Below are positions 2,235 through 17,653 of a DNA stretch of 64,000 nucleotides, one piece after another. Source of the stretch: Nitrospirota bacterium (GTDB lineage Bacteria; Nitrospirota; Thermodesulfovibrionia; Thermodesulfovibrionales; Magnetobacteriaceae); NCBI GenBank assembly GCA_015233045.1, contig JADFYL010000002.1, forward strand, positions 1 to 64,000, given 5' to 3'. Within the stretch, counting starts at the first letter, position 1, and each line of letters opens with the position of its first letter. The notes under the pieces are model-generated. The model was not told the origin of the DNA and did no database searches. It worked only from the letters and a program-made list of their open reading frames with translations. Made by a program: the position numbers and the translations under genes.

Positions 2235-2606
2235 ATGAGGGCAAAGATACTGATAGTCGAGGAAAACGAAAACAACAGGCTGCTGATGAGGGCAGTCCTG
2301 AGCTACCACGGGTATGACATTATCGAGGCGGCAAACGGTGAAGAGGCAGTGCGCGCGGCCAGGGAGGCCCTGCCAGCGCTGATATTTATGGGCATACAAC
2401 TACCCGTAATGGACGGCCTGGCGGCCGTGAAAGCGCTGAAGCGTGACCCCGCCACGCAGGGTATCAAGACCGTTGCTGTAACGGCGTATGCCATGAAAGG
2501 AGACAGGGAAAACATCCTTGAGGCCGGATTTGACGGTTATATATCCAAACCCATAGATACGAGGCGGCTTCCGGCAATCGTAGAGGATTATATATCACAG
2601 CCATGA
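2235..2606 (+). CDS. Single-domain receiver lacking the phosphoacceptor Asp
   Basis: 123 residues from the ATG at 2235; the frame is open further upstream but that part overlaps the kinase gene. It aligns along its length with CheY-like receivers of hybrid kinases: acidic pair E9-E10 (normally Glu/Asp-Asp), the Thr of TAYAMKGD and the Lys of GYISKP are all present. At the phosphorylation site the usual LMDIQMP appears as FMGIQLP, so residue 53 is Gly (GGC) instead of Asp (GAC/GAT). It therefore probably cannot be phosphorylated normally and may act as a phosphorylation-independent receiver or binding partner. Its stop overlaps the next start (ATGA), so the two are translationally coupled. Confidence 0.85.
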   Translation: MRAKILIVEENENNRLLMRAVLSYHGYDIIEAANGEEAVRAAREALPALIFMGIQLPVMDGLAAVKALKRDPATQGIKTVAVTAYAMKGDRENILEAGFDGYISKPIDTRRLPAIVEDYISQP

Positions 2607-4144
2607 AAGACAAGAGAAAGAAAATCCTCTGTGTTGACGATGAGCCAGTTAACCTCCAGCTCCTTGAGGCATTCCTAAGGCCACAGGGTTATGAGATGCT
2701 CATGGCCACAGGCGGCGTGGAGGCACTGGATGTGATATGCGCCACCTGCGTGGACATCGTCCTGCTGGACGTGATGATGCCCGATATGGACGGTTTCGAG
2801 GTATGCAGGACAATCAAAGGGAATGAAAGGCTGCGGCATATACCTGTAATAATGATGACAGCACTGACGGACAAGAAGGAGCGCATAAAGGGAATAGAGG
2901 CCGGGGCGGAGGAGTTCCTAAGCAAACCGTTTAATTTTGCCGAGGTGCTGGCGCGAGTCAGGATGCTTATCTCGATGAAGGAACTCAATGACCGGCTGAG
3001 TTTTGCCTACAACGACATGGTAACCCTGACGACCTACGGAGAGTCGCTGATGCATAGGTTTGACCCTGCCAGTTTCGATTTCCACACATCAATAGACGAG
3101 ATAATGAAGCAGACGTTAAGAAAAAAGACGAAAGAAGACGCCAGGCCAGAGGCATTCATCGTAGGAATATGCAACGACAAGGACAAGGACTGGCAGTGGC
3201 GCGTATATAAATATAACGACGGGGCAACAGGCGGAATAATTGAGTCGCAGTTACTGCCGGGCGGCTATGAAAGCCTGCTTGCCATACCTGGCCGGGGCAG
3301 CTCTGCCACATCGGTGCTGAACGCTGGCGACATGGACAGCCCTGAGTTTGCCGAGTTCTTAAATGAGATACGCCACACCGTGCTACAGATAGACAACGTC
3401 GTCTCCTACGTCAGCGCCTCGCTGTGTATATTTGCGATAAACTATGGCTACACGGTGTCTTCATACGACGCCTCGGTGCTGAATAATTTTGTGGTACAGA
3501 GCCTGTTTCTAAAGAATCTCTCGTCGCAGGTGCATGAGACAGAAGACGCCTTTGAGTACATGGTTTACAGCCTTGCGAGGGCGGCAGAGAGTAACGACGA
3601 GGACACGGGAAATCACATCCTGCGCGTTGGGCGTTATTCAGCAACGATAGCGGAGTATCTGGGCATGGACGCAAGGTTCATCCAGACCATTATCCTGCAG
3701 GCAACGCTTCACGACGTGGGGAAGATTCACATACCGGCGGAAATCCTGAAAAAACCCGGGCAGTTAACGACCGCACAATGGAGGGAGATGAAGCAGCATT
3801 CCTCATACGGCGCCAAGATAATAGGCAGCCACTACAGGCTGTCAATGGCGGCAAGCATAGCCCGGACGCACCATGAGAAATGGGACGGCAGCGGCTACCC
3901 CAATGGCCTGAAAGGGGAGGATATCCCGCTGGAGGGACGTATCGTGTCCCTTGCGGACATATTCGACGCCCTGATAAACCCGCGCGTCTATAAACCCGCC
4001 TTCGATGCGAAGACCACATATAAAATCCTGACAGAAGGAGATGGCCGCGTAATGCCCCACCACTTCGACCCGCAAGTCCTTGAGGCGTTCAAAAACACAG
4101 TTTCGAAATTTTTGGAGATATTTGAGGAGCTGAAAAATAACTGA
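2603..4144 (+). CDS. Receiver-HD-GYP response regulator (putative c-di-GMP phosphodiesterase)
   Basis: 513 residues. The receiver (1-125) has the acidic pair in CVDDEP, phosphoacceptor D56 in LLDVMMPDMDG and the conserved Lys in LSKPFN. A middle region (about 140-300) is not recognised. The C-terminal HD-GYP domain (about 310-505) carries TGNHILRVG, the catalytic pair in LHDVGKIHIP, the paired histidines in ARTHHEKWDGSGYP and LADIFDAL, all expected for an active c-di-GMP phosphodiesterase. ATGA overlap with the preceding Asp-less receiver suggests the pair works with the kinase at 431. A cytoplasmic enzyme lowering c-di-GMP is the likely role. Confidence 0.92.
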   Translation: MKDKRKKILCVDDEPVNLQLLEAFLRPQGYEMLMATGGVEALDVICATCVDIVLLDVMMPDMDGFEVCRTIKGNERLRHIPVIMMTALTDKKERIKGIEAGAEEFLSKPFNFAEVLARVRMLISMKELNDRLSFAYNDMVTLTTYGESLMHRFDPASFDFHTSIDEIMKQTLRKKTKEDARPEAFIVGICNDKDKDWQWRVYKYNDGATGGIIESQLLPGGYESLLAIPGRGSSATSVLNAGDMDSPEFAEFLNEIRHTVLQIDNVVSYVSASLCIFAINYGYTVSSYDASVLNNFVVQSLFLKNLSSQVHETEDAFEYMVYSLARAAESNDEDTGNHILRVGRYSATIAEYLGMDARFIQTIILQATLHDVGKIHIPAEILKKPGQLTTAQWREMKQHSSYGAKIIGSHYRLSMAASIARTHHEKWDGSGYPNGLKGEDIPLEGRIVSLADIFDALINPRVYKPAFDAKTTYKILTEGDGRVMPHHFDPQVLEAFKNTVSKFLEIFEELKNN

Positions 4145-4165
4145 GACCCTATGGAGAAGATACCC

Positions 4166-5437
4166 ATGCAGAGAATAATTATAAAGAATTTCGGGCCAGT
4201 AGAAGAGGTTGATTTAAATATCAACGACATAATGCTCTTCATCGGCCCACAAGCAAGCGGCAAAAGCACTATCAGTAAGGCGGTGTATTTCTTTAAATCG
4301 TTAAAAGAGGATTTAATTAGATATGTTTTGGGACCAATCAGAAAAAAGAACTTTGAAGAGTCAATAGATAATTTTGATAGAGCAGCAGATGCAAAATTCG
4401 TGGCTATTTTTGGTCCGATACAACATCTATCCAATACATATCTCAAGTATGAATATAAAGAAGGTGTGGATATAGAAATAACTATTGAAGAAGGAAATTG
4501 CGTTTACCATTTCAGCGAGGCGTTTCGCCAGCTCCTTTCGGAAATTATTGACAGGGTAAAATCCTATTCGTCAAAATATCAAGCAAAAATTTCCAAATTT
4601 TTATCTTCAAGTAAGCGTTTTGAAGTAGGATTTGAACAAGCGGGTTTTGAAGGTGAAATTGAAAAGTTAGCTAATGAATTGTTTTCAGACGAGCGGGATA
4701 TATTCTTTTTCCCTGCTGGAAGAAGTCTTCTTGCGATTTTTTCTGACCAAGGACAGAAAATTGATTTTAGAAAACTTGATTATACTATGGCTCAGTTTGC
4801 AGACAGGATAGATATTTCAAAGTTAATCTTCTCATTATTCCCGACTATTAGTGCGCAAAAACAATCGAAATTGACACAAGCAGCACAAGATATTATTTTG
4901 AAAATTCTAAAGGCAACGTATCGGTTTGAAGACGATGAAGATAGACTCTACTTTAGTAAAACGGGTCATACAAGACTAACTTACGCCTCATCCGGTCAAC
5001 AAGAGGCAATATGGATATTATTGTTTATACGTGAAATAATACAGGAAGACAAGGATTTCTTCTCAGTGTTTGAAGAACCGGAGGCACACCTTTATCCTGA
5101 GACGCAAAAAGACATTATTGATTTGATTTGTCTGCTGTCCAATTTACGAAGCAATCAGATAATCATAACCACGCACAGCCCTTATATCTTGTCTTCGTTT
5201 AATAATTTGCTCTACGCATACAACGTAGATAAAAAAGGGGTGCCGGATGTCAACTCCATCGTCAGCAAACAATTATGGATTAATCCTGACAGATTAGATG
5301 CCTACTTTGTTGATAAGGGGCGGGTTAGGTCAATTATTGATGAAGAGTATAAGTTAATAAAAACGGAAGAGATTGACAACGCCTCCAGAGTTATTAACGA
5401 GGTGTATCGCAAACTATTCGATATTGATCCTGAGTGA
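4166..5437 (+). CDS. AAA/OLD-like ABC-type ATPase (AAA_15/AAA_21 type)
   Basis: 423 residues from the ATG at 4166, chosen because GGAGAAGA lies 6-14 nt upstream and family members begin with the motif IKNFGP; an ATG at 4151 is the alternative. Walker A is GPQASGKST (about residue 26-34). The ABC-like signature is YASSGQQEA, Walker B is FEEPEAHLYPE and the switch histidine is in IITTHSPYILSS. This is the architecture of stand-alone overcoming-lysogenization-type ATPases, but no C-terminal Toprim domain is evident. The gene is visibly more AT-rich than its neighbours and overlaps the next gene by ATGA. Such ATPases with a nuclease partner are often phage-defence modules; that role is inferred. 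Confidence 0.85.
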   Translation: MQRIIIKNFGPVEEVDLNINDIMLFIGPQASGKSTISKAVYFFKSLKEDLIRYVLGPIRKKNFEESIDNFDRAADAKFVAIFGPIQHLSNTYLKYEYKEGVDIEITIEEGNCVYHFSEAFRQLLSEIIDRVKSYSSKYQAKISKFLSSSKRFEVGFEQAGFEGEIEKLANELFSDERDIFFFPAGRSLLAIFSDQGQKIDFRKLDYTMAQFADRIDISKLIFSLFPTISAQKQSKLTQAAQDIILKILKATYRFEDDEDRLYFSKTGHTRLTYASSGQQEAIWILLFIREIIQEDKDFFSVFEEPEAHLYPETQKDIIDLICLLSNLRSNQIIITTHSPYILSSFNNLLYAYNVDKKGVPDVNSIVSKQLWINPDRLDAYFVDKGRVRSIIDEEYKLIKTEEIDNASRVINEVYRKLFDIDPE

Positions 5438-5898
5438 TGAGCTGCGACAATTTTAAAAACCATAAATGCTCTAAATGCGACAATCGCAGGATGATCGTCG
5501 TGGTAGACAAGAAAAGTAAAAGATGTAAATACAGACTTGATAACGCACCACAAAAAAAATTTTGCATCGTTGAAGTGGATGGCTGTTTTATTACCGATAA
5601 TGATAAACAAAAGTGTGATTACTTAATAATTAATTGCGACAGTAATGTGGCATATTTTGTAGAACTTAAAGGAAAGGATATTTTTCATGCTATAGAGCAG
5701 ATAACTCAATCCATAGAGCTATTGTCAGTTAAAATAACTGGCTGCAAAATCAACGCAAGAATAGTATTAACAAGGGTTGCTGACTCTGTGGCTTTTTTAG
5801 AAAACGACCCCAAAATGCAACGATTTGAAAAATTGTTAAGAGGATACAAGAATGGCAATCTCAAAAAAGGAACTATTCAGTTTGTGGAACCGGAGTAG
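5434..5898 (+). CDS. Small protein with a PD-(D/E)XK-like core, partner of the ATPase
   Basis: 154 residues, not matched to a named family. The N-terminus has Cys-rich stretches (C4, C12-x2-C15, C31). Residues 42-92 read like a restriction-endonuclease core: beta-strand with E47, D62 in CDYLII, then E77-x-K79 in YFVELKGKD, followed by a helix with Q89. This E-D-ExK pattern is what PD-(D/E)XK nucleases show. The start overlaps the ATPase stop by ATGA, so the two proteins are probably made together. Base composition is AT-rich like the ATPase gene, unlike the flanking signalling and lol genes, which suggests joint horizontal acquisition. Nuclease activity is inferred from motif spacing only. 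Confidence 0.7.
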   Translation: MMSCDNFKNHKCSKCDNRRMIVVVDKKSKRCKYRLDNAPQKKFCIVEVDGCFITDNDKQKCDYLIINCDSNVAYFVELKGKDIFHAIEQITQSIELLSVKITGCKINARIVLTRVADSVAFLENDPKMQRFEKLLRGYKNGNLKKGTIQFVEPE

Positions 5899-5920
5899 AA
5901 AAAAAGTGTACAGGCGGCTT

Positions 5921-6673
5921 ATGCGGACCATTCGACTGGCAATCCTCCTCGCGGCCTTTTGCCTTCTATTCACCACCCCCGCGGTTGCCGCCCCGGATTC
6001 TAAATTCAGCCTACCCGCGCAGCTTTTGGACTCCGACACCGCGGTCTCACCTGATGACAAGATAAAATTGACCCGCCGTATTAAAGACCTGCTCAGCGGT
6101 ATTGACGCCGTCTCGGCGGCCGTATATCAGACCAAGCACCTTGCTATGCTGAAAAAGGCAATCGAATCAGAGGGCACGGTAATCATCAGAAAAACACCCC
6201 GCGCACTCAGATGGGAGGCCGTAAGGCCCGAAAGGACAGTAACCATCATCGGCGAAAAGACGATAACCATCTATAAACCAATCGAAAAGGAGGCCGATAT
6301 ATACGACATAGAGGCCAATATCGCGGCCAAACAGTCAATGGCGTTTTTCTCTTCCACCATGTGGGGTGATATTTCGGAGCTGGAGAAGAAATTCAGGACA
6401 GAGATTTATTTAAAAAATGGCCTCATTATCTACAGACTCATCCCGATTTCTGAGATGGTTTTGAGGTACCTCACATCAATAGTAATATATTTTAACGACT
6501 CCACGGGCATCCCCGCCGGGTTTGAGCTGACCACGCCAAAAGGAGACAAGTACATGACCTCGTTAAGGGATGTCAAAAAAAACCCGCCATTTGACATAGA
6601 CACGTTCTCTCTGAAACTTCCAAAGGAAGTCTGGGTGCGAGACCACACAAAGCCGGATGAGAACAATAGATAA
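5921..6673 (+). CDS. LolA-like periplasmic outer-membrane lipoprotein carrier
   Basis: 250 residues from the ATG at 5921, which has AGGCGG about 5 nt upstream; the frame is open from 5852 but the added residues would precede a normal signal peptide. Residues 1-27 form a signal peptide ending AVAA. The body resembles LolA/LolA-like proteins: a G-x-V-x-I-x-K-x-P segment (EGTVIIRKTPRALRWEA), repeated beta-strands with IGEKTITIYKP, and a late segment with TTPKGDKY. The family shuttles lipoproteins or other amphipathic molecules across the periplasm. A LolD-like ATPase lies at the window start, but other genes intervene. Confidence 0.75.
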   Translation: MRTIRLAILLAAFCLLFTTPAVAAPDSKFSLPAQLLDSDTAVSPDDKIKLTRRIKDLLSGIDAVSAAVYQTKHLAMLKKAIESEGTVIIRKTPRALRWEAVRPERTVTIIGEKTITIYKPIEKEADIYDIEANIAAKQSMAFFSSTMWGDISELEKKFRTEIYLKNGLIIYRLIPISEMVLRYLTSIVIYFNDSTGIPAGFELTTPKGDKYMTSLRDVKKNPPFDIDTFSLKLPKEVWVRDHTKPDENNR

Positions 6674-13744: not shown

Positions 13745-15031
13745 TTATTTGATTACCGCAACACCCATGTATGCCCTGAGGACCTCAGGTATTACAACGG
13801 AGCCGTCTTTTTGCTGAAAATTTTCTATAATAGCGGCCACAGTCCTTCCTATGGCAAGCCCTGAGCCGTTTAGTGTGTGAATGAATTCGGTACCTTTTTT
13901 ATCGCCCCGCTTGAAGCGTATTTTAGCGCGCCGCGCCTGAAAATCCTCGAAATTTGAGCACGAGGATATCTCTCTGTATCGCGTCTGCCCGGGCAGCCAG
14001 ACCTCTATGTCATACGTCTTTGCCGCAGAGAACCCTATGTCACCCGTGCAAAGCAGCATTACCCTGTATGGGAGGCCAAGTTGCCGGAGGATGTCTTCGG
14101 CGTCTTCTGTCAGGGACTCAAGCTCATCGTAGGAGTGCTCTGGTCTGACGAATTTGACAAGCTCGACCTTGTTAAACTGGTGCTGCCTGATAAGGCCCCT
14201 TGTGTCTTTGCCGTAGGAGCCGGCCTCGCGCCTGAAACACGGCGTATATGCGGTATAGTAAATCGGCAGCTCCTCTTCTTTGAGGATTTCCCCTGCGTGG
14301 ATATTTGTAACGGGCACTTCGGCGGTAGGTACGAGATAAAACTCCGGGTCAACTGTGCGAAACAACTCCTCGGCAAACTTGGGCAGTTGCCCCGTGCCGG
14401 TCATGCTCTGCCGGTTGACCAATATGGGAGGAAATATCTCCTTGTAGCCGCGTGCGCCGTTATGGTCAAGCATGAAGTTCATAAGGGCACGCTCAAGCCG
14501 CGCCCCGTAGCCTTTCATAATAGCAAACCGCGCCCCTGAAATCTTAGCCGCCCTGTCGAAGTCTATAATGTCAAGCGACTTGGCAATATCCCAGTGGTTA
14601 AGCGGAGGGAAGTCAAACTGGCGCGGCTCGCCCCATTTTCTGATTTCCACATTGGCAGTCTCGTCCCTGCCGACGGGGACGGTGGCGTGGGGGATATTAG
14701 GAATAATCATGGTGACAGAGGCAATTGCCTCCTCTTTTGATTTTAGCTTCTCTTCAAGTGATTTTAGTAGGTCTGAGACTTCCTTCACCTCGGCGGTCTT
14801 ATCCTTGGCCATGTCGAGACTGTGGTCAGACTTAAGCTGAAGTTTCCTCATCATGCCGATTTCCTCGGAGATGATATTGCGCTTGTTTCTGAGTTCGTCA
14901 ATTGTCTGTTGAAGCTCCTTGCGATTGTCTTCCAGTTGGAGGAGTTCGCCGATGTTGATAGCGCAGTTTCTGCTGTGAAGCGCCTCTTTGACAAGGTCAG
15001 GATTTTCACGTATAAATCTAATATCAAGCAT
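13745..15031 (-). CDS. serS: Seryl-tRNA synthetase
   Basis: 428 residues, family length. The N-terminal coiled-coil arm (about 30-105) binds tRNA. Class II motifs are visible: motif 2 [18 protein letters not shown] followed by [10 protein letters not shown], and motif 3 [20 protein letters not shown]. There is no clear Shine-Dalgarno. A TATAAT at 15042-15037 ends only five bases before the ATG, so a leaderless or nearly leaderless transcript is possible, although no good -35 accompanies it. It is the first gene of the minus-strand serS-hemC-cobA/hemD-mnmE operon. Confidence 0.97.
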
Positions 15032-15302
15032 CGTCTATTATACTATAAAACCGGGGCCACGTGGTAGTTAAATTTATCTCAGTGTTATAAGAGACACAGA
15101 GAACACATGTAGAGGCTTTATGGCATAATTTTTTAAATAATCAGGAGTGTTGCGTCCATTAGCTGAATTCATGGGTCTTTTGGGGCGTGAGGGCTATTAA
15201 AATCCTCTCACAAAGGGTTTTAAACGCTAAACAATTCCCAGAAAATCCAAAAACCGCTGCCACGGCTTATTTTAATGGTGAATTTAGGAATTTTTGCCAA
15301 CA
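15032..15302. other. Divergent intergenic region, AT-rich, no gene seen
   Basis: The 315 bases between serS and the kinase at 15347 hold the serS -10-like TATAAT (15037-15042) at one end and a good plus-strand promoter (15303-15331) at the other. The middle is AT-rich with no supported ORF, tRNA or conserved repeat that I can recognise. Confidence 0.6.
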
Positions 15303-15331
15303 TTGCAAAAGAGAACTTTTAATGGTACAAT
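15303..15331 (+). promoter_or_regulatory. Sigma70-type promoter for the Cache/PAS kinase
   Basis: TTGCAA (15303-15308), 17-nt spacer, TACAAT (15326-15331). Predicted start near 15338, only about 9 nt before the GTG start at 15347, so the transcript would have a very short leader that retains little of the GGGGA at 15335-15339. Confidence 0.6.
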
Positions 15332-15346
15332 GGTGGGGATTGTCAG

Positions 15347-17653
15347 GTGAAAAATACTATTAAACAGTTTCTCAATTTCAGGATTGTCATTGCCTCTGTA
15401 GTGGTATGCCTGATTACGGCTGGGGTAACCTATGTAACGACAAAGAAAAATGAAATGCGGCTACTGCGGAAAGAGACGCAGGAACGCCTGGCGATACTCA
15501 GCCGATTTCAATCATTCAGACTGGAAAGTTATGGCATCCACGCACGACTATTATCTGAAAACCCCTTAGTCTCCGAGTTTTGTAATCACCCGGACAAGGT
15601 TGAAACCATGAATGAATATCTGTCAGGGTTTAGTGTTTCAGCAGGGGCATCCTTAGCCTATATATTAAATGAAGACGGCCTTACGATTGCTTCAAGCAAT
15701 TATAAATCACCAAAAAGTTTAATGGGAAAGAATTATAGTTTTAGAGGATATTATAAAAAGGCCATTAAAGGACAGCCGAATACTTTTGTAGCCGTGGGTA
15801 CGCCGTCTAAAATACTAGGCTATTATAATGCCTATCCCATAAGGCATGGCGCTAATATAATCGGAGTTGCCGTAGTCAAATATGATTTGCTTTCTTTGCT
15901 GCCGCCAAACATTGGCTTCAATGAGGTTGTGTTTATATCAGATACAAACAACGTGATTTTTGACGCCACTGACAGCAGGTACATGTTACACACTATGGGT
16001 AAACTGCCGGAGGAGACTATGCGACAAATCAAAGACAGCCAACAATATTTGTCGGAACCTCTGCCGCCATTACCGATAATTAAAACTATTACTGAAGATA
16101 ATGCGACTATTGTTACCCTTCATTGGACCAGTTCTAAAGAGAATAAATATAATGAAGTCCAATATCTTATGGAAGAGGTTCTCTCCAATAAGGGCGATTG
16201 GCATATATATATGCTTGTTACGTTATCGCAAATAAACCAAAAAATCAAGGTTAATATCTTGTCGGCTGTTTCTACGGTAAGTGTAATCTTTCTTATCGGC
16301 ATACTACTATCCTTTATGGCGTTGGATATAAAAAGGCGTAAGGAATACGAACAGTCAATAACCGCTGCAAATGAAGAACTTGAACGGGTGGTCAATGCAA
16401 GAACTATGGAGTTACAAGAAAAAATAGGGCAGCTGTTATCATTGGAACAAACGCTCCAGGAAAACGAAAGAAAATACCGCCAGCTTGTTGAACTTTCTAT
16501 GGAGGGCATATGGGCTGTTGATAACGATGGCATTACCACGTTTGTAAACCATGCGATTGCCGATATGCTTGGTTACACAGTGGATGAGATGTTAGGAGTG
16601 AACTTTTTAGAATTTATGGATGACGAAGGGAAGATTAAGGCGATGGAAACCGTAAAGAGCCAAGCAGTGACAGGTCATAGCGACCGGTTGGAGACTACGT
16701 TTCTGCATAAGAATGGCAAAATAGTGTATGCAATTGTAGCCGCCACTGCCCTTATGGACGATGATAGAAATCCCACTGGGTCTTTTGCAGTTATATCTGA
16801 CATTACAAAACGCAGAGAAGCCGAGACCCAATTAAAGCAGTCACTGTCAGACTTAGAACGTACTTACAATGACCTTAAGCGGAGCCAGCAGCACCTTATT
16901 CAGTCTGAAAAGATGGCGGCACTTGGAGGAATGGTTGCCGGAGTGGCACATGAAATAAATACACCTGTTGGTATTGCTTATACACTGTCGTCTAACATCG
17001 TGAAAAAAAGTGAAACCATCGTGGCCGCCTTTAATGACAAGTCACTTAATAAGTCTCAACTTGAGGATTATATCACCGAAGTGGAGCAAAACGGCCAACT
17101 TATATTCAGAAATCTTCAACGTACCGCTGATCTAATAAAGAGCTTCAAGATGGTAGCCGCGGACCAGGTAACTCAGGAGAGACGGACTTTCAAGATAAAG
17201 GGCTACTTAGAAGAGATACTATTGACCCTTCAGCCGAAACTGAAGCATTGTCAGCTTAATATTGAAATCACATGTTCAGAAGACCTAACTGTGGATAGTT
17301 ATCCTGGAGCGTTTGCCCAAATCATAACCAATCTTTTGTTGAACTCTCTCATTCACGCGTATGCCCCCTGTGATAAAGGGGATATCTCAATTAAAGTAGT
17401 GGCAAAAGAGACGGAGATTACTGTAGAATATCGGGATGATGGCAAAGGGATATCACAGGAAAATCTTAATAGGATATTTGATCCTTTTTTCACTACGAGG
17501 CGAGGCACCGGGGGCACTGGACTTGGATTGCATATTGTGTTTAACATAGTCACTCAGACACTGGGCGGACGCATAGACTGTAAAAGTACTGAGGGAGAGG
17601 GGGCGACGTTTGTAATTAACTTCCCCATTAGCAAGGAGAAACAGCATGATTGA
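15347..17653 (+). CDS. Membrane sensor histidine kinase with Cache-like sensor and PAS domain
   Basis: 768 residues from a GTG at 15347. Transmembrane segments lie at about 10-29 and 303-325. Between them is a long periplasmic region with Cache-like features ([37 protein letters not shown]). A coiled coil and a PAS domain (about 375-490) follow. The HisKA box is [11 protein letters not shown] (His near 534), the NtrB/ZraS-like type. The ATPase domain shows [17 protein letters not shown] and [11 protein letters not shown]. Cache domains sense small molecules outside the membrane; the ligand is unknown. The next gene overlaps by 8 nt, so the hybrid kinase is probably its partner. Confidence 0.9.

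Follow-up and report, generated by a model that had tools for sequence, protein, structure and literature searches.

The window analysed here, a stretch of 64,000 nucleotides from a 74% complete draft of a Nitrospirota genome (2.6 Mb in 190 contigs), carries two adjoining genes on the same strand, one coding for an ABC/OLD-type ATPase and the other for a small predicted nuclease (Table 1). Both open reading frames, as they had been described in an earlier note on this DNA, were confirmed, including the end of the second at position 5898; a further in-frame ATG for the ATPase lies at position 4151. The junction had been described as an ATGA overlap, which needs revision: the ATPase stop and the small-gene start share one base (TGATG) if translation begins at the ATG, and four bases (GTGA) if it begins at the GTG. 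Likewise, the 154 residues previously counted become 153 from the ATG. The pair is flanked by a response-regulator/HD-domain gene and a LolA-type gene, and its neighbourhood in the window consists of housekeeping and signalling genes, with no defence island. A scan of positions 4000-6100 for promoters and terminators gave no sites above those of shuffled sequence.

Table 1 Features at the locus (window positions) and related copies in other sequences
Feature	Location	Strand	Remarks
Response-regulator/HD-domain gene	2603-4144		flank of the pair
ATPase gene (ABC/OLD-type)	4166..5437	+	423 aa; open reading frame
Small predicted PD-(D/E)XK nuclease gene	5437..5898	+	153 aa from ATG; GTG start at 5434 also possible
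LolA-type gene	5921-6673		flank of the pair
Second AT-rich stretch	14551-17584		<42% GC
Sensor histidine kinase gene	15347-17653		main gene of the second AT-rich stretch
Second diverged copy, source genome	G000:C136:6885-8608 (L002/L106)		
Nuclease gene with in-frame stop	L141:3560-4075 (G247:C195)		stop at codon 3; ATPase open
E. coli E24377A homologous pair	NC_009801.1:1007691-1009438 (L157:8001-9748)		WP_000427721/WP_000335230

Composition and selection

The AT richness of both genes relative to their neighbours, another early observation, is borne out by the codon-usage comparison. The GC content of the pair is 35.9% versus 48.6% for the window (in 1733-bp tiles the standard deviation is 3.1%, and 0.16% of tiles are equally low), and GC3 amounts to 0.35-0.36 versus 0.56-0.66 for neighbouring genes. 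The main gene of the second AT-rich stretch of the window encodes a sensor histidine kinase, so AT richness alone is no mark of defence in this genome.

The identical arrangement, flanks included, recurs in an independent metagenome-assembled genome (L004, JADFXO010000059), which excludes an assembly error. Relative to this genome, the ATPase gene has a dN/dS of about 0.26-0.39 and the small gene one of 0.32-0.37, i.e., both genes are under purifying selection, and both diverge faster than the flanking genes. With homologues over the whole length, dN/dS of about 0.3 and adjacency of ATPase and small gene in other genomes, the pair is far beyond chance.

ATPase

Judged by its motifs and predicted structure (AlphaFold model, pLDDT 85.9), the first gene product is an intact ABC-type ATPase. 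It contains Walker A GPQASGKS (K33), R186, the signature SSGQQ (S275-Q279), Walker B with E303-E304 and the H-loop H337; these, scored as motifs of ABC ATPases in general, fit an OLD-ABC-type ATPase. Pfam revealed AAA domains only (AAA_15, 3.5e-33), and the protein has no fused TOPRIM. The nearest folds identified by Foldseek were PtuA of Septu and retrons (3.3e-10) and AriA of PARIS (3.3e-8), with Rad50 also similar. In PADLOC-DB, the ATPase matched PDC-M29A (2.6e-26) and PD-T4-4_A (4.9e-21). The AriA model PDLC02979 scored better than PDC-M29A, but it covers the same stretch as the generic AAA_15 domain and is unspecific; membership in PARIS on this ground was rejected.

In three ATPases of the family from phage contigs (L034, L035 and L036) neither the signature SSGQQ nor the arginine of PAGR aligns and Walker A is altered, yet the partner nuclease retains the D...D...ELK...Q pattern. 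A more distant pair (L017, on G174:C25) has ELKK in place of ELKG and GPNNTGKT as Walker A; its small protein still matches PDC-M29B, and the pair is possibly a sister type.

Small protein

The earlier note had recognised restriction-endonuclease-like acidic residues and an E-x-K motif, counted from the GTG as E47, D62, E77 and K79. The last three correspond to D61, E76 and K78 and proved invariant, whereas E47 (E46 from the ATG) is variable, and the acid that is invariant lies two residues further along, at D48. Altogether, D48, D61, E76-L-K78-G79 and Q88 are kept in 11/11 aligned homologues, drawn from the source genome, its relatives, a plasmid of Bacteroides and two phage contigs of fecal origin, with the spacing of G79 as the sole exception, and likewise in 19/19 sequences of a broader alignment that includes phage contigs from IMG/VR. 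The Cys-rich N-terminal stretch pointed out before does exist, but the cluster is confined to near relatives and is no feature of the family.

The AlphaFold model of the small protein, built with the 19 sequences, has a mean pLDDT of 82.8 and a pTM of 0.82. Its predicted core comprises a strand at residues 62-66 (following D61), a strand at 71-76 (leading into E76-L-K78), a helix at 82-96 (with Q88) and a strand at 104-110. This is the order of the PD-(D/E)XK core with the conserved residues in the expected places, which argues for a nuclease fold and agrees with the pairing of an ATPase with a PD-(D/E)XK-like nuclease suggested at the outset. Fold libraries support this weakly: Foldseek against PDB gave nothing significant (best E 0.16; TM 0.33-0.36), and the matches, individually non-significant, were at the top mostly PD-(D/E)XK nucleases (Can2, EndoMS, SduA, Nt.BspD6I and PspGI). 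No significant match was found in a viral structure library, the small-protein profile had no match in PDB, and phmmer against PDB returned chance matches only (E 1.9, phospholipase A2). Pfam/NCBIfam hits to Trep_dent_lipo and acylphosphatase were below cut-off and dismissed as chance. The small protein is thus probably a diverged PD-(D/E)XK nuclease, with catalysis predicted from the invariant D61, E76-L-K78 and the modelled fold. The putative active-site set, D48, D61, E76, K78 and Q88, provides exact targets for mutation.

Match to a catalogued candidate family

PDC-M29, a computed candidate of PADLOC-DB 2.0.0 composed of PDC-M29A and PDC-M29B, is the only system in that database matched significantly by both proteins of the window. 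The small protein matches PDC-M29B at 1.1e-5 (residues 14-100; profile 22-116 of 164), the ATPase matches PDC-M29A, and the genes are adjacent on the same strand. Among relatives, PDC-M29A matches 11/11 and 18/18 ATPases; two PDC-M29B models match 8 and 3 of the 11 small proteins, and one of them 7/19 of the broader set. The pair had been put forward as undescribed, and here the searches of defence libraries gave a different answer: it matches PDC-M29A/B, is in keeping with the OLD-ABC ATPase + Novel REase class, of which WonAB is a member, and so corresponds to an already named system in so far as a candidate family has been catalogued. The locus therefore very probably belongs to an already described kind of system and is not a new type. 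In the literature searched we found no paper naming PDC-M29, nor a phage assay for its members from the lineage of the window.

Pairing, distribution and mobility

In essentially every case with readable flanks, the small gene immediately follows such an ATPase gene, which answers the proposed check of gene neighbourhoods: this holds in the source genome (2 copies), same-genus genomes, a plasmid of Bacteroides, phage contigs of fecal origin and about 15 contigs from IMG/VR. Distances between ATPases and between small proteins are correlated (Mantel r 0.89, 25 loci, 0/5000 permutations); at the level of sequence, the two components are strictly paired and co-diverge. Pairs homologous to that of the window turned up in Nitrospirota and Bacteroides as well as in E. 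coli and phage contigs. Scans of viral contigs by a single protein and by the small-protein profile found nothing, and a scan by the ATPase profile did find members.

The distribution is patchy, with 4/246 Nitrospirota genomes detected by the small protein of the window. In every Nitrospirota host examined the pair is AT-rich (30-38% GC versus about 45-54% for adjoining genes). The site after the HD-domain gene is occupied in the source genome and in L004; in L003, G134 and G247 the pair lies beside an amidohydrolase gene, and four same-genus genomes keep the amidohydrolase with no pair adjoining it. We sought a clean empty site for the insertion in the window. In G150, G249, G062 and G247 RR-HDGYP genes are present without an adjoining pair; LolA/VTT are also missing there, so these represent a different neighbourhood and no clean empty site. 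G246 was not counted as an empty site, as it shares a contig with L004 and carries the pair. Presence and absence among relatives, together with relocation, demonstrate from the genomes compared that the pair is mobile, in support of the initial suggestion of a horizontally acquired, possibly anti-phage module.

A second, diverged copy resides in the source genome (ATPase about 33% and small protein 34% identical) and belongs to a second subfamily (30-35% identical), which occurs on contig C136 and at the matching site in G134 and G150; the copy adjoins an acyltransferase/AMP-ligase gene, at a site conserved in two same-genus genomes. The nuclease gene of G247 has an in-frame stop at codon 3 beside an open ATPase gene, which points either to decay of the effector or to a later start codon. 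The same-genus genome G249 has a split copy: the small gene is entered midway by the start of one contig and terminates prematurely, at the same residues, on a second; this looks like an assembly break.

Outside this phylum, a homologous pair occurs in 10/5426 complete genomes of E. coli. In strain E24377A, where it is annotated as 'AAA family ATPase' and 'hypothetical protein', it lies between the replication endonuclease and portal genes of a P2-like prophage. The P2 gpA-gpQ interval is a described prophage defence hotspot (PMC9122126), and the position of the E24377A pair within it independently supports a role of the family in defence. This homologue is also a member testable in E. coli.

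Proposed function

An experimentally tested counterpart is WonAB from the WASA-1 prophage of V. cholerae, where one operon encodes an ABC ATPase of the OLD type together with a small nuclease of variant PD-(D/E)xK type (PMC12137116). Defence by WonAB needs both genes, along with K34, R182, E300 and H333 of WonA and K71 of WonB. Phage DNA is replicated. Upon activation translation stops and the chromosome remains intact, for which reason rRNA or tRNA is the suspected target of WonB (PMC12137116).

We consider the locus, with a probability of roughly 0.8, to be a mobile cassette of two genes that acts against phages, belongs to the OLD-ABC ATPase + Novel REase class, corresponds to the PADLOC candidate PDC-M29 and works like WonAB. 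By analogy with WonAB and OLD/ABC ATPases, the ATPase would dimerise through composite ATP sites, and its C-terminal extension may bind the nuclease and hold it in readiness. The complex would be switched on by a signal that the phage induces, probably replication of phage DNA or damaged DNA ends; the nuclease could then cut a growth-essential nucleic acid, perhaps RNA, and the infection would be aborted. On these analogies with WonAB, an ATPase-gated nuclease aborting infection is the most likely mode of action.

The same two proteins could instead restrict DNA, the ATPase sensing or moving on invading DNA and the PD-(D/E)XK subunit cutting it in a Septu/Gabija-like manner, with neither RNA cleavage nor abortive infection. 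Most PD-(D/E)XK nucleases cut DNA, the fold of the ATPase comes nearest to Septu/retron PtuA and to DNA-binding ATPases of the Rad50 type, and among the weak structural matches to the small protein are the DNases EndoMS, Nt.BspD6I and PspGI. However, WonAB, itself a different member of the class, stops translation and leaves phage DNA replicated and the chromosome intact, and we hold DNA restriction possible but on the low side. Members from Nitrospirota share about 25-30% identity with gammaproteobacterial ones, and this branch might differ in mechanism as a type of its own, with a separate trigger or substrate. This we find rather doubtful; if it were so, the diverged copies on C6 and C136 of one genome would sense different infections.

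A tight, mobile and AT-rich two-gene operon with a plausibly toxic small nuclease would also suit a toxin-antitoxin-like or plasmid-exclusion module, in which the ATPase restrains the nuclease and the cassette is stabilised with no role in phage defence. That is unlikely, since a pair of this family sits in the P2 defence hotspot and WonB is toxic only with WonA (PMC12137116), which speaks against simple sequestration. Even less probable is a domesticated cellular function in DNA repair or the cell cycle, of the kind that PMC12796447 reports for the archaeal OLD-family ATPase Cran1. Purifying selection and a site shared by two species would fit such a role; the patchy distribution among genomes of the phylum (4/246), the different sites among relatives and the absence beside the same flanking genes in others do not.

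Comparison with known systems

PARIS (AriA/AriB), Septu (PtuA/PtuB), Gabija and OLD share the related ABC-type ATPase fold, but the partner in the window is unlike theirs, with neither HNH nor DUF4435 and without a helicase or fused TOPRIM. Searches in Pfam and PADLOC found no match of the small protein to HNH, the partner type in Septu (PtuB), the window partner being of the D...ELK type, and none to AriB or DUF4435, the DUF4435/TOPRIM partner in PARIS. Shedu SduA (DUF4263) is a PD-(D/E)XK nuclease too; one relative matches it at 0.0057 and it appears among the weak fold matches, but Shedu is a single gene without an ATPase partner and SduA is not significant for the protein of the window. 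PD-T4-4 (Vassallo et al. 2022) likewise combines an ATPase and a nuclease; the ATPase matches it more weakly than PDC-M29A, and the small protein has no match to PD-T4-4_B at E<=1. Both components of PDC-M29 are matched, the small protein as a diverged member.

In design the pair is close to WonAB, which has been placed in the OLD-ABC ATPase + Novel REase class, present in 0.96% of bacterial genomes (PMC12137116) and credited to Krishnan et al. 2020 as cited there. The two share the gene order of ATPase and then small nuclease, OLD-type ABC motifs, a C-terminal extension without TOPRIM and a PD-(D/E)xK nuclease with its lysine (K71 in WonB). K34, R182, E300 and H333 of WonA and K71 of WonB are close in numbering to K33, R186, E303-E304, H337 and K78 in the window; the E. 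coli homologue (K33, R181, E300, H336 and K71) is closer to WonAB in numbering than the window pair. The likeness rests on the published description, residue positions and primer text. Read in one frame, the WonB forward primer gives NCLKGS, a provisional reading that would put C at the E of the family's ELK; the WonA primer was absent from IMG/VR. The locus would link the catalogue entry PDC-M29 with the tested WonAB and with the P2 gpA-gpQ hotspot, and extend the class to Nitrospirota and Bacteroides.
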